Positions 44,037 through 56,263 of a stretch of DNA of 64,000 bases are shown here, piece by piece. Source of the stretch: Chryseobacterium sp. G0186 (lineage in GTDB: Bacteria > Bacteroidota > Bacteroidia > Flavobacteriales > Weeksellaceae). Every line of letters begins with the position of its first letter. Position 1 is the first letter of the stretch. The stretch covers positions 62,001 through 126,000 of the forward strand of contig NZ_CP033918.1 in NCBI RefSeq assembly GCF_003815675.1. The letters are read 5' to 3'. Position numbers and translations under genes: made by a program. The notes under the pieces were generated by a model, which had not been told where the DNA came from, ran no database searches, and saw only the letters and a program-made list of their open reading frames with translations.

Positions 44037-45176
44037 ATGAATTTATTCAACGTATATCCATTATTTAATATAAATCCGGTTAAAGCTCTGGGGTCTTTTC
44101 TTTGGGATGATAAAGGAGAAAAGTATCTTGATTTTTACGGTGGTCACGCAGTAATTTCTATTGGGCACAACCATCCGTATTATCAGAATAAGCTTAAAGA
44201 GCAATTGGAAAAAATCTCTTTCTACTCAAACTCTGTTCAGAATGAATTGCAGACTGAACTGGCAGATAAATTAGGAAAACTTTCAGGGTATGAAGACTAT
44301 AACCTTTTCCTTTGTAATTCAGGGGCGGAGGCCAATGAAAATGCTTTGAAGCTGGCTTCTTTCCATAACGGAAAAAGCAAGGTTCTTTACTTTTCAGGTT
44401 CTTTCCATGGGCGAACGTCAGCCGCAGTTTCTGTAACAGATAACCCAAAAATTGTTGCACCGGTTAACTTTTCAGAAAGATTTATCAAATCAGAATGGAA
44501 CAATGTAGAACAGCTTGAAGAAACTTTCGCTGTACATGGAAACGAAATTTCTTCTATAATCATTGAGGGAATCCAGGGTGTTGGAGGAATTATGATCCCA
44601 ACTGCTGCATTTTTATCTAAAATTAAAGAATTGTGTGATAAATACGATGTTGTTTTGATTTTGGATGAAGTACAGTCTGGATATGGAAGAAGCGGATATT
44701 TCTTTGCCCACCAGGAATTCGGAGTAGAAGCGGATATCATTACTACAGCAAAAGGAATGGGGAATGGTTTCCCGGTTGGCGGAGTTCTGATCAGTCCGAA
44801 ATTTCAGGCAAGCAATGGCTTGTTGGGAACTACTTTTGGAGGAAATCACTTAGCTTGTGCCGCTTCAATTGCCGTTCTGGATGTGATGAAAGATGAAAAT
44901 CTTATCGAAAATGCTCAGAAAATGGGCGAGTATATTGAAAGTGAAATTAAAGATTTACCACATATCAGATCAATCCGAAGGAAAGGATTGATGATTGGAA
45001 TAGAACTCGACAGGGACTGTTCAGAAGTAAGGAAAAACTTACTGTATGATCATCATATTTTCACAGGAAACTCGAATGATAAAAGTGTTCTGAGGATTCT
45101 TCCCGCACTGAATATCAGGAAAGAGGAAACTGATCTTTTCATCAATGCCCTGAAAACGGTATTGGAGAATATTTAG
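44037..45176 (+). CDS. argD: Acetylornithine (or succinylornithine) aminotransferase
   Basis: A class III PLP aminotransferase of 379 residues that converts N-acylglutamate semialdehyde to N-acylornithine. Signatures: SGAEANENALKLA, HGRTSAAVSVT, ILDEVQSGYGRSG with the pyridine-N aspartate, and the PLP lysine in TTAKGMGNGFPVGG. Placed between argC and argF', which is the biosynthetic order. N-acyl group preference (acetyl or succinyl) is not readable here. Confidence 0.93.
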   Translation: MNLFNVYPLFNINPVKALGSFLWDDKGEKYLDFYGGHAVISIGHNHPYYQNKLKEQLEKISFYSNSVQNELQTELADKLGKLSGYEDYNLFLCNSGAEANENALKLASFHNGKSKVLYFSGSFHGRTSAAVSVTDNPKIVAPVNFSERFIKSEWNNVEQLEETFAVHGNEISSIIIEGIQGVGGIMIPTAAFLSKIKELCDKYDVVLILDEVQSGYGRSGYFFAHQEFGVEADIITTAKGMGNGFPVGGVLISPKFQASNGLLGTTFGGNHLACAASIAVLDVMKDENLIENAQKMGEYIESEIKDLPHIRSIRRKGLMIGIELDRDCSEVRKNLLYDHHIFTGNSNDKSVLRILPALNIRKEETDLFINALKTVLENI

Positions 45177-45203
45177 GATAAAAGGACAAAATTGTAACAT
45201 AAT

Positions 45204-45229
45204 CTTTGTCATTCCGTAGGAATCTAAAC
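45204..45229. repeat. Copy of the TTGTCATTCYG dispersed repeat
   Basis: Twenty-six bases that match the reverse complement of 52965-52990 with a single difference (C for T). It lies between argD and argF'. Because it ends just before 45234, the first ATG of the argF' frame is inside repeat-derived sequence and is unlikely to be the real start. Confidence 0.75.
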
Positions 45230-45275
45230 AAAAATGTTTAGCCTAGTATTTAATATGTCTTTAAAATCAATTCAA

Positions 45276-46232
45276 ATGAAAAATTTTACCGCTGTAAGTG
45301 ATGTAGAAAACTTACAGGAAATCATAAAAAAAGCTTTACAGATCAAAGCAAATCCCCTTTCGGAAACAGAAAAGGGAAAAGGAAAAACAATAGGACTTGT
45401 ATTTTTAAACTCAAGCCTGAGAACGCGTTTAAGCAGCCAGATTGCAGCACAAAACCTAGGATTAAATGTATTGACACTAAATGCAGCACAGGAAGCCTGG
45501 AATCTTGAATTTGCTGACGGTGCAGTGATGAACGGAGATACTGTTGAACATATCAAAGATGCCATTGAAGTGTTGAATCAATATTGTGATATTATCGCAG
45601 TACGTTGCTTTGCGGGAATGAAAAGTAAGGAAGATGATGTGAATGAAAGTATTCTCAGTCAATTTGAAAAGCATGCAAAAGTTCCTGTTATTTCCCTGGA
45701 ATCTGCAACCCGTCACCCTTTGCAAAGCCTTGCAGACTGTATCACCATCACAGAAAACTGGCAAAAAGAACATAAACCAAAAGTAGTTTTAACCTGGGCG
45801 CCACACATTAAACCGATTGCCCATGCTGTAGGAAATTCCTTTGCAGAATGGATGCAGGAAATGGATGTAGAATTAGTGATCGCCAACCCTGAGGGATATG
45901 ATTTGGATAAAAACTTTACCAAAGAGGTAAAAGTAATCCACGATCAGGATGAGGCGCTAAAAGATGCAGACTTTATCTATGTGAAAAACTGGTCTTCCTT
46001 TGATGATTATGCTGCAATGCCGGAAGTGAAAGGAGACTGGATGCTGACGAATGAAAAACTGGCCAATACCAATCAGGCAAAGGTAATGCACTGCCTTCCT
46101 GTTCGTCGTAATGTAGAGTTAAGTGATGAAGTAATGGACGGAGAAAACTCCATCATCTATCAACAGGCAAAGAATCGTATTTTCTCGGCACAGGCTGTGT
46201 TCAGTGAAATATTAGATACGATAAAAGGATAA
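45276..46232 (+). CDS. argF': N-acylornithine carbamoyltransferase, probably N-succinylornithine-specific
   Basis: Transfers the carbamoyl group to N-acylornithine. The ATG at 45276 (MKNFTAVSDVENL) is chosen over 45234 because it aligns with the Bacteroides fragilis protein start; the earlier ATG follows directly on a dispersed repeat. This gives 318 residues. The carbamoyl-phosphate motif is FLNSSLRTRLSSQ (44-55 region, replacing the usual STRT). HCLPVRRNVE is the acylornithine-type version of the HCLP loop. Residue 90, in NGDTVEH, is Val; the equivalent Pro90 (B. fragilis) or Glu92 (Xanthomonas) decides succinyl versus acetyl specificity, and Glu-to-Val gives succinyl specificity in published work. 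Confidence 0.93.
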   Translation: MKNFTAVSDVENLQEIIKKALQIKANPLSETEKGKGKTIGLVFLNSSLRTRLSSQIAAQNLGLNVLTLNAAQEAWNLEFADGAVMNGDTVEHIKDAIEVLNQYCDIIAVRCFAGMKSKEDDVNESILSQFEKHAKVPVISLESATRHPLQSLADCITITENWQKEHKPKVVLTWAPHIKPIAHAVGNSFAEWMQEMDVELVIANPEGYDLDKNFTKEVKVIHDQDEALKDADFIYVKNWSSFDDYAAMPEVKGDWMLTNEKLANTNQAKVMHCLPVRRNVELSDEVMDGENSIIYQQAKNRIFSAQAVFSEILDTIKG

Positions 46233-46305
46233 AAGCAAAGTTCCAATGTGTAATAAGCGTTTTGAATGATAAAAATAAAACGCATGTAATTAAATCTTTA
46301 ACCCT

Positions 46306-47100
46306 ATGAAACAGAAAATATACATCATAAAAATAGGCGGAGCCCTCATTGATGATGAACGATTGCTGGATCAGTTTTTAGAACAGTTTTCCGAAATAAA
46401 AGAAAAGAAAATCCTTGTTCATGGCGGAGGGAAGTTAGCTACAGAATTGGCTGCTAAACTTGGCTTGGAGCAAAAGATGATCAACGGAAGGAGGATTACA
46501 GATAAAGATACATTGGATATTGTAACGATGGTATATGCAGGGGGAATCAACAAAAATGTAGTTGAAAAATTGCAGCAGAAAAAATGTAATGCCATTGGGT
46601 TTTCCGGTGCAGACGGGAATTTGATTAAGGCTAAAAAAAGAGAACACCCTGAAATAGACTTTGGATTTGTAGGAGACATTGACAAAAAAAGTGTGAATAA
46701 GAAACTGCTTTCCAAATTGCTTAAACTGGATCTGGTTCCCGTATTTTCTGCCATTACCCACGATAAAAAAGGAAACCTTTTCAATACCAATGCAGATACC
46801 ATTGCATCAGTGATGGCGCAGGCTTTATCTTCTAAATATGAAGTTGAGTTATTGTACTGCTTTGATAAAAAAGGCGTATTGGAAAATGTAGAGGATCCCG
46901 AATCCCTTATTAAAAGTATTTCTGAAGAGAATTTTACCGCTTTAAAAGAAGAGGGAAAATTACACAAAGGGATTCTACCCAAACTTGAAAATGCTCTTGG
47001 AGCGATAAAGAATAATGTAAATAAGGTGTTTCTGATTAAGGAAACCGAATTGAAAAATCATATAGAGAATCATCATGCAGGAACTGAAATCTGTTTATAA
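46306..47100 (+). CDS. argB: N-acetylglutamate kinase
   Basis: Phosphorylates N-acylglutamate; an amino-acid-kinase fold of 264 residues. The lysine motif IIKIGGALIDD (7-17), the glycine-rich VHGGGKLATELAAKLG (39-54) and the distal NTNADTIASVMAQALSS block are intact. It lacks the N-terminal helix found in arginine-inhibited hexameric ArgB, so feedback inhibition may be absent or different. It overlaps the next gene by 26 bases. Confidence 0.94.
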   Translation: MKQKIYIIKIGGALIDDERLLDQFLEQFSEIKEKKILVHGGGKLATELAAKLGLEQKMINGRRITDKDTLDIVTMVYAGGINKNVVEKLQQKKCNAIGFSGADGNLIKAKKREHPEIDFGFVGDIDKKSVNKKLLSKLLKLDLVPVFSAITHDKKGNLFNTNADTIASVMAQALSSKYEVELLYCFDKKGVLENVEDPESLIKSISEENFTALKEEGKLHKGILPKLENALGAIKNNVNKVFLIKETELKNHIENHHAGTEICL

Positions 47101-48157
47101 TAAAGAAGAATTGTTGAATAATGCGGTTGGATTACTTAAAAATCTGATTGAAATTCCATCATTCAGTAAAGATGAATTCAATACCTCGGTAGAAATTGAA
47201 AATTTTTTCAAAAAGCATCAGATTCCAACCAAGCGTTTCAAGAATAATATCTGGGCAGTCAATAAAAACTTTGATGTTTTTAAACCCTCAGTTTTATTGA
47301 ACACACATCATGATACTGTGAAACCGAATAAAGCATACACACTGGATCCGTTTATCCCAATTGAAAAAGACGGAAAGTTGTATGGGTTGGGAAGTAATGA
47401 TGCCGGAGCTTCTTTGGTTTCCATGGCGCAGGTTTTTCTGCATTTTTATGATAAAGAAGATTTAAAATATAATTTAGTGATTGCTTTGACGGCAGAGGAG
47501 GAGATTTCAGGTTTTGACGGAATTGAAGCTCTGTTTCCACAACTACCCAATATAGAACTTGCCATTGTAGGAGAACCCACGCAGATGAATTTGGCAATTG
47601 CAGAAAAAGGCTTGCTTGTGATAGACGGGGAAATGAAGGGAACTCCTTCTCATGCTGCTCATCCCAATGACGATAATTCCATTATAAAATGTATGCAGGA
47701 TCTGCAGCATATCTTAGACTTTAAATTTCCAAAGGTTTCTGATTATCTGGGAGATGTTAAAATTACGCTGTCGGGAATTCATGCAGGAGTTCAGCACAAC
47801 GTAGTGCCTGAGGCATGTAACTTCACATTGGATGTAAGGGTAACGGATGAATATTCCAATAAAGAAGCCTTTGAAATCATCCAGTCACAAATGAAGTCGA
47901 CCCTTACAGCAAGGTCTTTCAGGCTGAATTCCTCAAAAATAGAAATGGATCATCCATTTGTAAAGGCAGGTCTTGAAATAGGGAGGACCACATATGGCTC
48001 ACCAACCTCTTCAGATCAGGCAATCATTCCCTGTACATCAGTAAAAATGGGACCTGGGGATAGTAGGCGCTCTCATACTGCGGATGAATTCATCTATATC
48101 AATGAGATAGAAGAGGGAATTGAAATTTACATCCGGATTTTGGAGAAAGTGTTATAA
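47075..48157 (+). CDS. argE: M20-family deacylase, probable N-acylornithine/N-acylcitrulline deacylase
   Basis: A 360-residue zinc peptidase-like enzyme. Metal-ligand motifs: LNTHHDTVKP (near 76-85), [28 protein letters not shown] with the general-base glutamate, IVGEPTQ, and the final histidine in RRSHTADEF. In the arg operon it should remove the acyl group. With a carbamoyltransferase acting before deacylation, the substrate is expected to be N-acylcitrulline rather than N-acylornithine. It overlaps argB by 26 bases. Confidence 0.9.
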   Translation: MQELKSVYNKEELLNNAVGLLKNLIEIPSFSKDEFNTSVEIENFFKKHQIPTKRFKNNIWAVNKNFDVFKPSVLLNTHHDTVKPNKAYTLDPFIPIEKDGKLYGLGSNDAGASLVSMAQVFLHFYDKEDLKYNLVIALTAEEEISGFDGIEALFPQLPNIELAIVGEPTQMNLAIAEKGLLVIDGEMKGTPSHAAHPNDDNSIIKCMQDLQHILDFKFPKVSDYLGDVKITLSGIHAGVQHNVVPEACNFTLDVRVTDEYSNKEAFEIIQSQMKSTLTARSFRLNSSKIEMDHPFVKAGLEIGRTTYGSPTSSDQAIIPCTSVKMGPGDSRRSHTADEFIYINEIEEGIEIYIRILEKVL

Positions 48158-48258
48158 ATAAAAAAAGAGATTAGATCGTAGAAGCTATAAATGAAAGGAA
48201 GTATTTCCAGAAAAGTAAAGCTAGCTTCTCATATTTAGCGTCTGATTTCTGAAAATAT

Positions 48259-48406
48259 ATTTTGACAACGCTCAGCAGGCATTAAAGTTTACGTTTCTAA
48301 TAAGGATTTATGCAAAAAAGAAAATTAGAAACCACAACTTTATCATAAGAACATGTTTTTTTATAGTTAATAGTAATAAGGATCGCTTTGCTGGGCATGT
48401 CAAAAT
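48259..48406. repeat. Structured inverted-repeat element between argE and argH
   Basis: The outer arms are 48259-48280 and 48385-48406 (both begin or end with ATTTTGACA and CAGCA, diverged inside). The nested inner arms are AAAGTT..GTTTCTAAT near 48284-48301 and ATTAGAAAC..AACTTT near 48324-48341. The 325-base spacer 48158-48482 has no gene; this element takes up nearly half of it. Confidence 0.6.
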
Positions 48407-48482
48407 CAATCAAATATTTTAAATCAGATCATTTTGAAACTATGAAAAGGTTATAAATGATCTCATAAAAATCAATTATTAT

Positions 48483-49787
48483 ATGAAAAAGATATGGCAA
48501 AAGGATGACCTGGCCACCAATATATTAGTCAATAACTTTACTGTAGGAAAGGATCTTGACTTTGATGAGCGTTTGGCAAAATACGATGTCAAAGGTTCTA
48601 TGGCACACTGCAAAATGCTTGCAGAAACCGGAATTATTTCCAACGAAGAATCAGAGCAGATGTTGTCTGTATTACATGATATTTTAAATAAAATTGAAGA
48701 AGGAAATTTTGAAATTGATAAAGAAGCTGAGGATATCCATTCTCAGGTAGAGGCGATCTTAATTGCAGAATTAGGAGACACTGGAAAAAAGATCCATACC
48801 GCAAGATCAAGAAACGATCAGGTTTTATTGGATATTAAACTGTATCTGTTGGATGAAATTCGTGAAATAACGGCTCTTACCGATGAATTCTTTCAAATCT
48901 TGATTCAGCTGGCTGATCAGCATAAAAACGTATTGCTTCCAGGGTATACCCACTTGCAGATTGCGATGCCTTCATCCTTTGGGTTGTGGTTTGGAGCTTA
49001 TGCAGAAGCCCTTTTGGATGATGTTGAAATGTTGTTTTCAATCAAGAATATTATCAATAAAAATCCATTAGGTTCCGCAGCTGGATATGGTTCATCTTTC
49101 CCTATCAATCGTGAAAGTACAACCTATAACCTGGGCTTTCAGTCCATGAATTACAATTCTGTGTATGCCCAAATGACCCGTGGAAAATCGGAGAAATTAC
49201 TGGCGATGTCGATGGCTACATTAGCGGGAACACTTGGTAAGTTTGCTTACGATGTTTGTCTGTATTTGAATCAAAACTTCGATTTTATAAGCTTTCCAAA
49301 GGAATTTACTACAGGAAGCAGCATTATGCCACATAAAAAGAATCCGGATATCTTCGAGTTGGTTCGTGCACGATGTAACAGAATTCAGGCCTTACCGAAT
49401 GAACTGATCCTGTTAACGAATAATCTGCCGTCAGGATATCACCGTGATGTACAGTTGACTAAGGAAATTCTTTTCCCTGCTATTGATTCATTAAAGGAAT
49501 GTCTGGAAATTCTAAGCTATACTTTGCCAAATATTCAGGTAAAAGACGGAATTCTGGAAGATGAAAAATACAAATATCTTTTCAGTGTAGAAAAGATCAA
49601 TGAAGAAGTGAAAAGCGGAAGCTCTTTCCGTGATGCCTATGTAAAAGTAGGGCAGGATATTGAAAACAACGAGTTTGACTTTGAAGCAGGAAACCTTGAC
49701 CATACCCATCAGGGAAGCATCGGGAATCTTTGCCTGGATAAAATAGAATATCAGTTCAATAAACTGAAAAATAAATTATTGGGTTAA
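48483..49787 (+). CDS. argH: Argininosuccinate lyase
   Basis: Splits argininosuccinate to arginine and fumarate. It belongs to the fumarase/aspartase superfamily: the TARSRNDQV block (near 104-112), TQL-type H in PGYTHLQIAMPSSFG, and the catalytic-loop signature GSSIMPHKKNPDIFEL near residue 281. 434 residues, usual length. It is last in the operon, 325 bases after argE, so it may have its own promoter or rely on read-through. Confidence 0.96.
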   Translation: MKKIWQKDDLATNILVNNFTVGKDLDFDERLAKYDVKGSMAHCKMLAETGIISNEESEQMLSVLHDILNKIEEGNFEIDKEAEDIHSQVEAILIAELGDTGKKIHTARSRNDQVLLDIKLYLLDEIREITALTDEFFQILIQLADQHKNVLLPGYTHLQIAMPSSFGLWFGAYAEALLDDVEMLFSIKNIINKNPLGSAAGYGSSFPINRESTTYNLGFQSMNYNSVYAQMTRGKSEKLLAMSMATLAGTLGKFAYDVCLYLNQNFDFISFPKEFTTGSSIMPHKKNPDIFELVRARCNRIQALPNELILLTNNLPSGYHRDVQLTKEILFPAIDSLKECLEILSYTLPNIQVKDGILEDEKYKYLFSVEKINEEVKSGSSFRDAYVKVGQDIENNEFDFEAGNLDHTHQGSIGNLCLDKIEYQFNKLKNKLLG

Positions 49788-50082: not shown

Positions 50083-50544
50083 TTATTCCAGATCAATCTT
50101 GAATTTGGTAGATTTTTTTACCTCATGCAAGACAATGGAGCTGTGGTATTGTCCGATATTAGGAAGATTGGAAATAATATTGACTGCAAATTCATTATAA
50201 GAATTGATGTCTTTAGCGATAATCTTCAGCATGTAGTCGTACTCTCCGGAAAGACTGATGATTTCCTGTACTTCATCATGATTTCCGATATGTTTTTCGA
50301 AAGTTTCCAATACCTTTTTGGATTGCTCCTTAAGACGAACATTACAATAGACGACAATATTCAAACCCAATTTTTCACGGTTTAAGAGGCCGACATACTT
50401 TTCAATGATCCCCTGTTTCTCCAATTGTTTGATTCTTTCATACGTTGGAGTAAAGGTAAGACCTATCTTTTCTGAAATTTCCTTAACAGATAAAGTAGAG
50501 TCTTCCTGTATAATGCTGAGAATCATTTTGTCTTTTAAATCCAT
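50083..50544 (-). CDS. Lrp/AsnC-family transcriptional regulator
   Basis: A 153-residue regulator. The N-terminal winged HTH has STLSVKEISEKIGLTFTPTYERIKQLEKQGII (about 17-48). The C-terminal RAM domain has GEYDYMLKIIAKDINSYNEF with the conserved G-x-Y-D-Y ligand-binding segment. It is transcribed away from the pyrB leader and toward argH. An amino-acid ligand is expected. Control of the flanking arg or pyr genes is plausible but unproven. Confidence 0.93.
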   Translation of the reverse strand: MDLKDKMILSIIQEDSTLSVKEISEKIGLTFTPTYERIKQLEKQGIIEKYVGLLNREKLGLNIVVYCNVRLKEQSKKVLETFEKHIGNHDEVQEIISLSGEYDYMLKIIAKDINSYNEFAVNIISNLPNIGQYHSSIVLHEVKKSTKFKIDLE

Positions 50545-50629: not shown

Positions 50630-50660
50630 TTTGTAGGTTCATAAAATTGTTGTATCTTTG
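50630..50660 (+). promoter_or_regulatory. Promoter of the pyrB leader
   Basis: TTTG (50630-50633), 19 bases, TATCTTTG (50653-50660): a full match to the Bacteroidota consensus. The leader-peptide ATG at 50667 is only six bases after the box, so the transcript should be leaderless or nearly so. Confidence 0.82.
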
Positions 50661-50666
50661 CACCTA

Positions 50667-50738
50667 ATGAATAAAAAAGCATTTATATCATTAGATTTAC
50701 CGGGCGAAAGCGCCCTTTACGATATTTATTGTTATTAG
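50667..50738 (+). CDS. pyrB leader peptide (23 residues)
   Basis: A short frame right after the promoter, reading MNKKAFISLDLPGESALYDI and then Tyr-Cys-Tyr before a TAG stop. Codons 13-17 span a GC pause hairpin, the last seven codons are U-rich, and the stop codon overlaps the 5' arm of the terminator by two bases. A ribosome following RNA polymerase closely would cover the terminator stem. It corresponds to pyrL of the enterobacterial pyrBI attenuator in arrangement, not in sequence. Confidence 0.75.
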   Translation: MNKKAFISLDLPGESALYDIYCY

Positions 50739-50764
50739 CGAAGATTGTTGTCTTCGCTTTTTTT
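50702..50764 (+). promoter_or_regulatory. UTP-type transcription attenuator of pyrB
   Basis: Three elements in order. A pause hairpin GGGCG-AAAG-CGCCC lies at 50702-50715. A U-rich tract follows at 50716-50736 (13 of 21 bases are T). The intrinsic terminator has an 8-bp perfect stem AGCGAAGA / TCTTCGCT (50737-50744 and 50751-50758) and six Ts (50759-50764). The pyrB start codon comes 20 bases later. The order equals the E. coli pyrBI attenuator, where low UTP stalls polymerase in the U tract and lets the ribosome prevent termination. Confidence 0.82.
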
Positions 50765-50783
50765 ATGCCCAAAAATTAGAATT

Positions 50784-51674
50784 ATGTTTACGATTACAGA
50801 ACTAAGCACCGAGAGAATCAACAGTATACTGACAGAAGCACTGGCTTTTGCGAACGGGAAAACTGCTAAAATTGATGGAGAAGTTTTTTGCTCAAACCTT
50901 TTCTTCGAAGACAGCACAAGAACGAAGACAAGCTTTGATATTGCAGAAAGAAAATTAGGACTTCAGGTTGTTCCCTTTGATGCTTCCCACAGTTCTGTAA
51001 ATAAAGGAGAGAGTCTTTATGATACCGTAAGGACGATTGAAAGCCTGGGAGTAAACCTCGTGGTAATTCGTGATAAAAAAGACAGATACTTCGAGGAACT
51101 AAAGAATATAAAAATCCCTGTGATCAACGGTGGAGACGGAACAGGAAACCACCCATCACAATGTATGCTGGACCTGATGACGATCTACCAGGAATTTGGA
51201 AAGTTTGAGGGATTAAAAGTAGGAATTGTAGGAGATGTAAAACACAGCCGTGTAGCCAACTCCAATGCTGAAGCCTTAAGAAGATTAGGCGCTAAAGTAT
51301 ACTTTTCAGGACCGGAGCAGTGGTTTGATGAGGGGGCTTTAATTAACGGAACCTATCTTTCAGTTGATGAACTCATCTCTGAAGTGGATGTTCTGATGTT
51401 ATTGAGAATTCAACATGAAAGACATGATGATGCCATGAGTTTTACAGCTTCTGAATATCATAAAAGATATGGCTTGACTATAGAAAGAGAGCAAGCAATG
51501 AAAAAAGAAGCAATCATTATGCATCCCGCGCCTATCAACAGAGGAGTTGAAATAGATTCAGACCTTGTGGAATGCAAACGTTCAAGAGTCTTCAAACAAA
51601 TGGAAAATGGGGTTTTCGCAAGAATGGCCATCTTGAAAGAAGCGCTGGAACAAAAAGGATTTACATTTAAGTAA
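50784..51674 (+). CDS. pyrB: Aspartate carbamoyltransferase catalytic subunit
   Basis: First committed step of pyrimidine synthesis. The ATG at 50784 ([13 protein letters not shown]) is chosen because the longer frame from TTG 50745 would be read through the terminator hairpin; this gives 296 residues. The carbamoyl-phosphate motif is [11 protein letters not shown] (41-51), with [13 protein letters not shown] the HPxQ block, and [13 protein letters not shown] and [11 protein letters not shown] conserved. No pyrI gene follows, so feedback by the regulatory subunit is not expected from this locus. Control is probably by the leader attenuator. Confidence 0.95.
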
Positions 51675-51827: not shown

Positions 51828-52901
51828 ATGAAGAAAAAATTAATACTGGAGTCCGGTGAAGTGTTTCATGGAGAAGGTTTCGGAGCAGAATTGGAAACTG
51901 CAGGAGAGGTAGTTTTCAATACCGGAATGACAGGGTATCAGGAATTGATTTCTGACCCATCATATTGCGGTCAGATAGTTTGTATGACCTATCCGCTTAT
52001 CGGAAATTATGGTATTAACCGTGATGATTATGAAAGTATTGAGCCGGCAATCAAGGGGCTTATCGTAAAGGAAATTTGCGATCTTCCTTCCAACTTCCGT
52101 ACTCAGATTACTTTAGATGAATTATTTAAAAAGAAAAACCTTTCAGGAATCTCTGGAATCGATACGAGAAGACTGACAAGAGTTCTACGTAACTACGGGG
52201 TTGTAAAAGGAAAAATTGTAAATGCTGATGCGGATGAAAATGCAACAGTTTCAGAATTAAAATCAACCAATTTCCCAACCAATCAGGTAGAAGAGGTTTC
52301 TACAAAGACACCTTATGCTAATCCAAACAGAGGTTTCAAGGTAGTGTTGGTTGACTTCGGGGCAAAACTGGGAATCATCAGAGAGCTATCTCAAAGAAAC
52401 TGTGACATTATTGTTGTTTCTCAGGATACAACAGCAGAAGAAATCTTATTGATGAACCCTGATGGGATTATGCTTTCAAACGGTCCTGGAGATCCGGAAG
52501 ATGTACCACACGCATTGGATATGATCCGTGGATTATTAGGAAAAGTTCCAATCTTCGGAATCTGTTTAGGACACCAATTGATCGGACTGGCTTGTGGAGC
52601 AAAGACGTTCAAGTTAAAATTCGGACACAGAGGAGGAAACCACCCGGTATTGGATTTAGAGAAAAACAAAGTGGCTATCACTTCTCAAAACCATGGGTAT
52701 GCAGTAGATCAGGAAAGCTTAAAAGGAACAGACCTAATCGAAACGCACATCGCATTGAACGACAGAACGAACGAGGGATTAAAACACAAAATCCACCCTT
52801 GCTTCTCTGTTCAGTATCACCCGGAAGCAAGCCCGGGCCCGGAAGATGCAAACTACTTGTTTGATGAGTTTATTGATATGATGGAGGACTTTAAAAAGTA
52901 A
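51828..52901 (+). CDS. carA: Carbamoyl-phosphate synthase small (glutaminase) subunit
   Basis: Supplies ammonia from glutamine to CarB. The N-terminal CPSase_sm domain has NTGMTGYQELISDPSYCGQI. The class I glutaminase domain has the nucleophile C246 in IFGICLGHQLIG and the HPE pair in SVQYHPEASPGP. 357 residues, standard. It lies 153 bases after pyrB on the same strand, so the pyrB attenuator may also control it. Confidence 0.97.
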   Translation: MKKKLILESGEVFHGEGFGAELETAGEVVFNTGMTGYQELISDPSYCGQIVCMTYPLIGNYGINRDDYESIEPAIKGLIVKEICDLPSNFRTQITLDELFKKKNLSGISGIDTRRLTRVLRNYGVVKGKIVNADADENATVSELKSTNFPTNQVEEVSTKTPYANPNRGFKVVLVDFGAKLGIIRELSQRNCDIIVVSQDTTAEEILLMNPDGIMLSNGPGDPEDVPHALDMIRGLLGKVPIFGICLGHQLIGLACGAKTFKLKFGHRGGNHPVLDLEKNKVAITSQNHGYAVDQESLKGTDLIETHIALNDRTNEGLKHKIHPCFSVQYHPEASPGPEDANYLFDEFIDMMEDFKK

Positions 52902-53080: not shown

Positions 53081-56000
53081 ATGGCAAAACGTACAGATAT
53101 AAAAACAATTTTAGTAATCGGTTCAGGACCTATCATCATTGGTCAGGCAGCTGAATTTGATTACGCAGGAACGCAGGCTTGTCTGTCTTTGAAAGAAGAA
53201 GGCTACAAAGTAATTTTGATCAACTCAAACCCTGCAACGATCATGACAGATGTGGAAATCGCAGATAAAGTATATATCGAGCCGATTTCATTACAGTTTG
53301 TAAGCCACATTATCAGAAAAGAACGTCCGGATGCATTGTTACCAACGCTTGGAGGTCAGACAGGACTGAATATGGCAGTGGAATTAGAAAAATCGGGAAT
53401 TCTTGAAGAATGCAAAGTGGAAGTATTGGGAACAAAGCTTTCTGCAATCAACAGAGCAGAAGACAGAGACCTTTTCCGTGAGCTGATGAGAGAACTGAAC
53501 GAACCGGTTCCTGAGTCTGATATTGTAAACACAGTAGAGGGAGCTATTGCCTTTGCTGATGAGATTGGTTATCCTGTTATTGTTCGTCCTGCCTTTACCA
53601 TGGGAGGAACCGGAGGTGGTATTGCTTCTACCGAGGTGGAATTGAAAGAAATTGCTGAACTAGGTCTGAAACACAGCCCCGTTACACAATGTCTTATCGA
53701 AAAATCAATTGCAGGTTTCAAGGAGATTGAATACGAAGTAATGCGTGATGCAAACGACAACGCCATTGTGGTTTGTAACATGGAAAATATAGATCCTGTA
53801 GGAGTTCACACAGGAGACTCAATTGTAGTAGCACCTTCTCAGACCCTTTCAGACAGAGAGTATCAGTTATTGAGAAATGCCTCTCTGAAAATTATCAGAG
53901 CCTTAGGAATTGAAGGAGGATGTAATGTACAGCTGGCTTTAGATCCACACTCTTTCGAGTATTACATCATCGAGGTAAACCCTAGAGTTTCCCGTTCATC
54001 AGCGTTAGCAAGTAAGGCAACAGGATATCCGATTGCGAAGATTGCAGCAAAGATTGCAGTAGGATTAACTCTGGATGAAATTATGAATCCTGTGACAGGG
54101 AAAACATATGCTTGTTTTGAACCTGCATTAGACTATGTTGTAACGAAATTCCCAAGATTCCCATTCGATAAATTCGAAACGGCGGACAGAAGACTTTCAA
54201 CGCAGATGAAGGCAACCGGTGAAGTAATGGCTATCGGAAGAAACTTTGAAGAATCTTTACAGAAGGCAATCCGTTCATTAGAAACAGGTATTAAGCACCT
54301 TGGATTAAAAACAAAGCAGGCTCAGGCATTGACAGCAGAAGAAATCGAAAGAAGAATCAGAGTTTGTGATGACGAAAGATTATTCATCATCGGAGATGCT
54401 TTAAGAAGAGGATATGACTGGGAGCAAATCGTAGAATGGAGTAAAATTGATAAGTTCTTTATCTGGAAAATGAAAAAATTAGTTGATTTCGAAAAAGTCA
54501 TCGCTGATAACAAGTTTGATAAAGAGACTTTAATCCAGGCTAAGAAACTAGGTTTTGCTGACATCAATATTGCGGTTCTTTGGGAAGTAAAGGAGCGTGA
54601 GATCTTCAATTTCAGAAAAGAAAACGGAGTGATGCCGGTGTACAAAATGGTAGATACTTGTGCTGCAGAATTTGAAAGTGAAACACCATACTTCTATGGA
54701 ACATACGAAGAAGAAAACGAAAGTGTTGTTTCGGATAAAGAAAAAATTATCGTACTAGGTTCAGGGCCTATCAGAATCGGACAGGGAGTTGAATTTGACT
54801 ACGCAACCGTTCACTCAGTTTGGGCAATCAAGGAAATGGGGTACGAAGCAATCATCATCAACAATAACCCGGAAACAGTTTCTACAGACTTCTCAATCTC
54901 AGATAAACTATACTTCGAGCCTCTTACAGAAGAAGATGTAATGAACATCATTGATCTTGAAAAGCCTAAAGGAGTAGTGGTTCAGTTCGGTGGGCAGACA
55001 GCGATTAACCTTGCAGATAAATTAGCTTCTCACGGAGTTCAGATTCTTGGAACTTCCCTTGAAGACCTTGACAGAGCTGAAAACAGAGATAAATTTGAAA
55101 AAGCCCTACAGGAGATGGGAATTCCTCAGCCAAAAGGAAGAACTTCAACTTCTAAGGAAGAAGCGATAAAAATTGCTAACGAAATCGGTTATCCGGTATT
55201 GGTTCGTCCAAGCTACGTATTGGGAGGTAGAGCCATGGAAATTGTATACGCAGAAGCAGAGCTTGCTTACTATATGGAGCATGCAGTAGATGCAAGCCCT
55301 GAGCACCCTGTTTTGGTTGACAAATACATGGTAGGAAAGGAAATTGAGGTAGATGCCATCTGTGATGGTGAAACAGTGGTAATCCCGGGGATTATGGAGC
55401 ATATCGAAAGAGCGGGGGTTCACTCCGGAGACTCTATCGCAGTGTATCCGCCACAGAACATCTCACAAAGCGAAATAGACACTTTGGTAGATTACACGAA
55501 AAGACTGGCAAAAGGACTTAATGTTATCGGATTGATGAACATCCAATACGTTCTTTTCGAAGGAAATGTATATGTGATTGAAGTAAACCCACGTTCTTCA
55601 AGAACAGTTCCTTTCTTATCCAAAATTACTGAAGTTCCGATGGCCAACCTTGCTACAAAAGCAATCTTAGGTCAGAAACTGGCAGATCTTGGCTACAAAA
55701 ACGGATTGGTTCCGAATAAAGAGGGAGTCTTTGTAAAAGTTCCTGTATTCTCTTTCTCTAAACTGACAAAGGTTGATATCTCTTTAGGCCCTGAAATGAA
55801 GTCTACAGGAGAGGTGATGGGGAAAGATACAACACTTGAAAAAGCTCTTTACAAAGGTCTTGTTGCTGCAGGAAGAAAAGTTCCGATGCACGGATCTATT
55901 CTGTTCACAGTGGCAGATAAGCACAAAGAAGAAGCCGCTGAACTGGCAGCAAGATTCCATGAAGTAGGTTTTAGAATCTGGGCTACAGAAGGAACCGCGA

Positions 56001-56263
56001 AATTCTTTGGCGAAAAAGGAATCCCTTGCAAAATCGGATACAAGATCGGAGAAGAAAATGTAAATCTTATCGACCTGATCCAGAAAGGAAAAGTTCAGTA
56101 TGTTGTAAATACCACTACAAAAGGGAAGCAAGCTGAAAGAGACGGATTCCAGATCAGAAGAATGAGCGTGGAGAACGGTGTTCCTTGTTTAACCTCAATG
56201 GACACAGTAGAAGCAATCTTAAAGGTAATTGAAAGTATGAGTTTCAAAATGGAAACAATGTAG
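53081..56263 (+). CDS. carB: Carbamoyl-phosphate synthase large subunit
   Basis: Makes carbamoyl phosphate from bicarbonate, ammonia and two ATP, for both PyrB and the arginine carbamoyltransferase. The 1060-residue protein shows the duplicated ATP-grasp layout: first half opens with [20 protein letters not shown], second half with [20 protein letters not shown] near residue 560. Each half has an ATP-grasp core ([29 protein letters not shown]). The C-terminal MGS-like allosteric domain (about 935-1060) is present. The carA-carB gap of 179 bases is unusually long and filled with repeats. Confidence 0.97.

Follow-up and report, generated by a model that had tools for sequence, protein, structure and literature searches.

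A probable ribosome-dependent attenuator of the pyrBI type precedes pyrB in Chryseobacterium and across its family

The DNA in front of pyrB in Chryseobacterium sp. G0186 raises the question of whether this gene is governed by a UTP-sensing attenuator like that of Escherichia coli pyrBI, as the initial annotation had proposed, and of how such a device would have come to stand there. Coordinates refer to the window, the whole stretch of 64,000 nucleotides that was analyzed (contig NZ_CP033918.1, positions 62,001 to 126,000), and all features of the pyrB locus given below lie on the forward strand. The aspartate carbamoyltransferase gene pyrB (50784–51674; Pfam PF02729 and PF00185) is followed by carA (51828–52901; PF00988 and PF00117), presumably in the same operon, and by carB (53081–56263), an ORF named from its sequence as the large chain of carbamoyl phosphate synthase. 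The upstream neighbor, assigned by Pfam, is a divergent gene for an Lrp/AsnC-type regulator (50083–50544), and the putative attenuator sits between the two. This regulator gene adjoins the pyrB promoter and could control either pyrB or the arginine biosynthesis genes found just upstream of pyrB-carAB (44037–49787), namely those of an aminotransferase, an OTCace-family protein, an acetylglutamate kinase-like protein and an argH-like lyase, two assigned by Pfam and the others named from sequence. The two carbamoyl phosphate users, the arginine genes and pyrB-carAB, are neighbors in the window.

Upstream of pyrB the sequence reads, in this order, as a promoter element, a leader ORF, a GC-rich hairpin, a T-rich tract and a terminator. 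The promoter element TATCTTTG (50653–50660) is of the Bacteroidota −7 type, whose consensus is TAHHTTTG with a start site 4–5 nt downstream (PMC6847099). The leader ORF (50667–50738) extends from the ATG at 50667 to the TAG at 50736–50738 and has 23 codons, MNKKAFISLDLPGESALYDIYCY. The proposed pause hairpin GGGCG-AAAG-CGCCC (50702–50715) is followed by the U-rich tract (50716–50736; 13 T of 21), a proposed zone of UTP-dependent pausing. The intrinsic terminator, or attenuator proper (50737–50764), comprises a stem (50737–50758) that starts inside the leader stop codon and a run of T (50759–50764), and ends 20 nt before the pyrB ATG at 50784. On re-reading, the initial annotation held in all its coordinates, as well as in the 23-codon frame, the GC hairpin, the T content of the tract, the stem starting in the stop codon and the distance to pyrB. 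The "consensus promoter" that it reported stood as a promoter, of the TAnnTTTG kind; a sigma-70 promoter was rejected, as a sigma-70 scan lists no site there.

A consensus scan of 6 kb says little alone, with four terminator-like sites against 3.9 in shuffled sequences, the pyrB attenuator terminator having the most pairs of the four. This terminator folds at −12 kcal/mol with a z-score of −5.1, and the whole leader RNA has a z-score of −3.4, while the stretch with the pause hairpin, taken alone in the window sequence, reaches only −2.0. Promoter, ORF, hairpin stem and terminator were kept in all 81 genus-level loci, namely the window and the best 80 of 238 relatives (79 titled Chryseobacterium and one Weeksellaceae MAG, L081). 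The stem of the pause hairpin was constant in these 81 loci and its loop took 10 different forms; one stem base was changed in a further locus of the same genus from outside this set (L092). Third codon positions were invariant at 17 of 23 codons in the leader (73 leaders of equal length, eight of the 81 having another length and being left out) versus 14 of 295 in pyrB (81 sequences), which argues that the nucleotides of the leader are constrained, and not the peptide alone. The anatomy of the attenuator is not a product of chance, and conservation settles this.

In the family compared here, which we take to be the Weeksellaceae, PyrB was present in 89 of 120 genomes, representing 26 of 33 genera, and 89 of the 90 pyrB places listed were examined, one fragment (G057) being left out. 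A leader ORF and a terminator were found at 88 of these 89 places, in 26 genera, one of which (g17) has them in a longer form. Outside g17 they were detected by script at 79 of 80 places and by eye at the remaining one (L101). Eight of the nine g17 places carry a longer, TTG-started ORF of 64–89 codons that runs through the terminator, in a frame that was picked because it is open, and at the ninth (L153) neither leader ORF nor terminator was found. All nine were omitted from the cross-genus statistics, and two duplicates (L157 and L158) were dropped from later counts. A single script demanding promoter element, ATG, ORF and terminator recovered 82 of 84 family loci, missing L101 and L153, the latter being the only g17 place entered, and none of 30 testable pyrB loci from outside the family (33 loci, three of them skipped as cut by contig ends); 26 of these 30 had no terminator within 300 nt and four had a terminator but no such ORF. 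A carA match followed pyrB in all 39 family loci searched, one of them cut by a contig end. In one genome (L123) the spacer from terminator to pyrB is longer by about 115 bases. Genome-wide, the hairpin pattern with up to three mismatches matched once, at pyrB (a reversed control pattern matched twice), and TANNTTTG-N6-ATG occurred at 149 sites versus 90 for its reversed control; among the 30 of these 149 sites inspected, an ORF that stops at a terminator was seen at pyrB alone.

Of 72 distinct leaders from 25 genera, 70 keep the ORF open up to a point 6 nt short of the terminator stem; the other two frames are open in 2 and 25 of the 72. In none of the 72 did the stop codon precede the stem by over 14 nt; some ORFs end beyond the stem, and in 44 of the 72 leaders the stop codon ends exactly 2 nt inside it. 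Four genera, along with individual leaders from four more, have an ORF that enters or crosses the terminator. In E. coli, a terminator dropped in efficiency from about 90% to <10% when the stop codon ahead of it was shifted from a distance of 28 bp to one of 5 bp, and terminator folding needs 10–15 nt of free RNA (PMC4824070). The position of the leader stop codon would thus fit direct cover of the terminator by the ribosome. Compared by eye, the leader peptides fall into several dissimilar groups, some of them common to neighboring genera.

The 40 nt holding the pause hairpin folded better than their shuffles (mean z −1.5, Stouffer −7.4 over 25 genera), with 6 of the 25 genera below p 0.05 individually and a combined significance that is too strong, the genera being related. 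Stems vary and stay paired, e.g. GGGCG/CGCCC, ATGGCT/AGCCAT, TCGGA/TCCGA, GAAGGGC/GTCCTTC and others; these pairs are best-scoring picks, for which the shuffle test is the control. The gap between hairpin and terminator spans 10–42 nt (16–28 nt in 23 of 25 genera). With one leader taken from each of the 25 genera, the T fraction is 0.54 and the A fraction 0.31 over the 20 nt that precede the terminator, as against 0.29 and 0.36 over the remainder. The initial annotation had pointed to conserved hairpins beside a variable peptide as the pattern to look for in related genomes, and this was borne out: the architecture is kept, the peptide varies, and the hairpin changes in sequence with its pairing preserved. 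We propose that GC hairpin and U tract form a polymerase pause site, on which so short a leader would depend. For E. coli, the same source holds that, without the help of a pause site, a ribosome is unlikely to draw level with the polymerase over the first 100 bp (PMC4824070).

Parts, order, spacing and conservation are read directly from the sequences; from them we infer the start site, the pausing, the action of the ribosome, the UTP signal and the operon with carAB. It is likely, in our judgment, that a ribosome-dependent transcription attenuator sets the expression of pyrB, and probably of carAB, by the UTP pool. RNA polymerase would start just before the leader AUG, ribosomes would load on a nearly leaderless message, and the GC hairpin followed by the U-rich tract would pause the polymerase. 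When UTP is scarce, the long pause would give a ribosome time to reach the leader stop codon, at the foot of the terminator, and cover the 5′ arm of the stem, giving read-through into pyrB; when UTP is plentiful, the polymerase would leave the tract ahead of the ribosome and stop at about 50759–50764. A literature search found, in the portions of text covered, no paper showing transcription-translation coupling in this phylum. UTP is proposed as the signal from the U-rich tract and the pyr genes behind it. The same anatomy might instead respond to ATP plus UTP, to general polymerase speed or to the state of coupling (growth rate, translation capacity), as the overall A+T richness of the tract would allow, but T is enriched over the remainder of the leader and A is not, and the genes behind the attenuator are pyrB and carA, so that we consider such a signal unlikely.

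Pairing of the leader with the 5′ arm of the terminator, examined for this arm only in one leader per genus, did not exceed chance: the combined p was 0.26, and individual values fell below 0.05 in 2 of the 25 genera. This makes a general antiterminator unlikely, and this element was rejected. The exception is g24, whose leader pairs well with the 5′ arm (p 0.005). PyrR-controlled pyr attenuators likewise have a terminator upstream of pyr genes and need PyrR and an antiterminator. The terminator is common to both; the antiterminator was not found here, and neither was PyrR, no match exceeding the 138-bit cut-off in the G0186 genome or in any of the 120 family genomes, in agreement with the initial annotation, which knew of no PyrR gene (97 of the 120 have weaker matches, none above 37 bits). 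Rfam gave no family at gathering score, only three weak matches far below it, and a riboswitch or other Rfam family was rejected on this ground. An RNA that binds a ligand or a protein and toggles between terminator and antiterminator, such as a riboswitch or a PyrR-like element, would account for the very strong nucleotide conservation of the leader inside Chryseobacterium and for the pairing in g24. Across genera, however, the core that is kept, judged by eye and by column counts, consists of promoter, AUG, U tract and terminator only, the stems and loops of the pause hairpin change, and the missing antiterminator, PyrR and Rfam family add to making this reading very improbable.

The leader peptides contain isoleucine in all 25 genera and phenylalanine in 24, as might be expected if the leader stalled ribosomes in sensing an amino acid or through the nascent peptide, but both residues follow from U-rich codons. 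The motif ATATTT, present in the last stretch of 59 of the 72 leaders, falls in one frame in 50 and in the other two in 6 and 3; with the U-rich motif in all three frames and the residues so explained, amino-acid sensing was rejected. The dissimilarity of the peptide groups also speaks against it, and a ribosome stalled upstream would, with no antiterminator, favor rather than prevent termination, leaving this alternative with hardly any plausibility. A constitutive, unregulated partial terminator with an upstream ORF is similarly implausible: a fixed terminator would require neither a frame that stays open as far as the terminator while the peptides differ nor a conserved hairpin and U tract.

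The ribosome-dependent attenuator would begin with an unusual message. The distance from the TAnnTTTG element to the AUG was 6 nt in 75 of 82 loci, 5 nt in six and 7 nt in one, and the base before the AUG was A in 81. Since many transcripts of Flavobacterium johnsoniae begin at a distance of 4 or 5 nt downstream from this element (PMC6847099), the first base of the message would lie about 1–2 nt before the AUG. From this deduced start site, the pyrB message is probably leaderless, unlike most in the phylum: according to the same source, Bacteroidota messages do without Shine-Dalgarno sites and are mostly leadered, with a leader of more than 10 nt in 87% of the predicted transcripts of F. johnsoniae (PMC6847099), and for Bacteroides thetaiotaomicron the share of 5′ UTRs under 10 nt is put at about 3.7% (PMC7366714).

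Pairing tests point to a candidate 5′ hairpin over the leader AUG (50664–50694), in which CTAATGA (50664–50670) can pair with TCATTAG (50688–50694), with a p of 0.05 for the window alone. Over 25 genera the pairing had a combined p of 4e-4, with five genera at or below p 0.05 and several showing no pairing over the AUG. A downstream CATT occurs in 14 of the 25 genera and is absent from 11; in 12 of the 14, against an expected 6.3 (p 0.0003), base −2 meets a matching partner (T with A or C with G). This count takes one leader per genus and does not allow for the kinship of the genera, so that perhaps one or two events underlie it. An earlier covariation count, which disregarded 10 of the 25 genus combinations, those whose T or C does not pair, gave p 0.04. 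Foldable with a covarying base in about half of the genera, the candidate hairpin is only moderately supported; if it is real, base −2 must be transcribed. It might act as a brake on ribosome loading.

The origin of the arrangement may be glimpsed in the enzyme and its neighbors. The closest solved structures to the window PyrB are 3r7d and 2at2 (352 bits), which we take to be from Bacillus subtilis. The one g17 PyrB tested (L214) is likewise of the Bacillus type (353 bits); for a PyrB from elsewhere in the order (L196, another family), a part of 280 aa scores 173 bits with the same structures. The window PyrB is 34% identical to the part of E. coli PyrB compared (279 aa), and its best named relative, among the best 80 of 238, is that of C. 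indologenes (97% identical). PyrI (PF01948) had no match in the G0186 genome, and 7 of 14 control genomes, E. coli included, had one. In an order-wide run, PyrR exceeded the cut-off in 97 of 156 genomes, none of them of this family, and in all six loci checked from other families of the order (L164–L169) the coordinates place pyrR next to pyrB on its upstream side. The simplest reading that these comparisons suggest is that pyrB was replaced by a Bacillus-type copy that came without PyrR.

The "pyrBI-type" architecture of the initial annotation is well supported by the anatomy across the family, where a short ORF, a pause hairpin with a U tract and a terminator without antiterminator were found. 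As in E. coli pyrBI, promoter, short ORF, GC hairpin, U-rich tract, terminator and pyrB follow one another in the same order. In E. coli pyrL, low UTP slows the polymerase on the U-rich template and the ribosome keeps the terminator from forming, according to PMC10135430. The E. coli leader is 44 codons long, crosses the terminator and ends 3 nt short of pyrB, with GGAGG, seen by eye, just before its ATG, whereas that of Chryseobacterium has 23 codons, stops at the base of the terminator and is probably leaderless. Chryseobacterium further differs in its 21 nt between hairpin and terminator, in the lack of PyrI and in carA behind pyrB. The long g17 leaders (L211–L218), likewise with leader ORF, U-rich stretch and terminator before pyrB, come closer to E. 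coli pyrL there, in that their TTG-started frames pass through the terminator. Given the deduced start site, there is no U run for reiterative transcription in the start region of the window, CACCTAATGAATAA, and TTT occurs in only 4 of 82 promoter-to-AUG spacers of the family. Side by side and by eye, the leader peptide has no resemblance to PyrL, in line with the statement of the initial annotation that the two are unrelated. Descent from pyrL was rejected on account of the dissimilar peptide, the missing PyrI and the lack of a U run at the deduced start. The suggestion that the mechanism may have evolved independently gains from the comparison, since a separate origin fits both the dissimilar peptide and the position of pyrR upstream of pyrB in those six loci of the order. 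A freer leader peptide is also what the E. coli model predicts and, if that model is right here, the peptide would be largely free to vary. The family would have traded the pyrR-pyrB pair seen in its relatives for a Bacillus-type pyrB without regulator and evolved a leaderless UTP attenuator de novo, with the AUG hairpin timing ribosome loading against the UTP-dependent pause, a scenario that we advance tentatively as possible.

To the initial annotation the present analysis adds a probable leaderless start, a possible hairpin over the AUG, a pyrB of the Bacillus type and the longer variant of g17; our literature search found no paper describing the pyrB attenuator of Chryseobacterium or the Weeksellaceae. 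If the UTP-sensing, ribosome-dependent reading is right, attenuation of this kind arose at least twice, and a regulator-based switch was swapped for a regulator-free one in front of the same gene. A ribosome would be needed close behind the polymerase, which would make coupling directly testable in Bacteroidota. Should the de novo scenario also be true, this locus and E. coli pyrBI would have converged on one design, and the former could serve as a natural reporter of tight coupling in a phylum that lacks Shine-Dalgarno signals.
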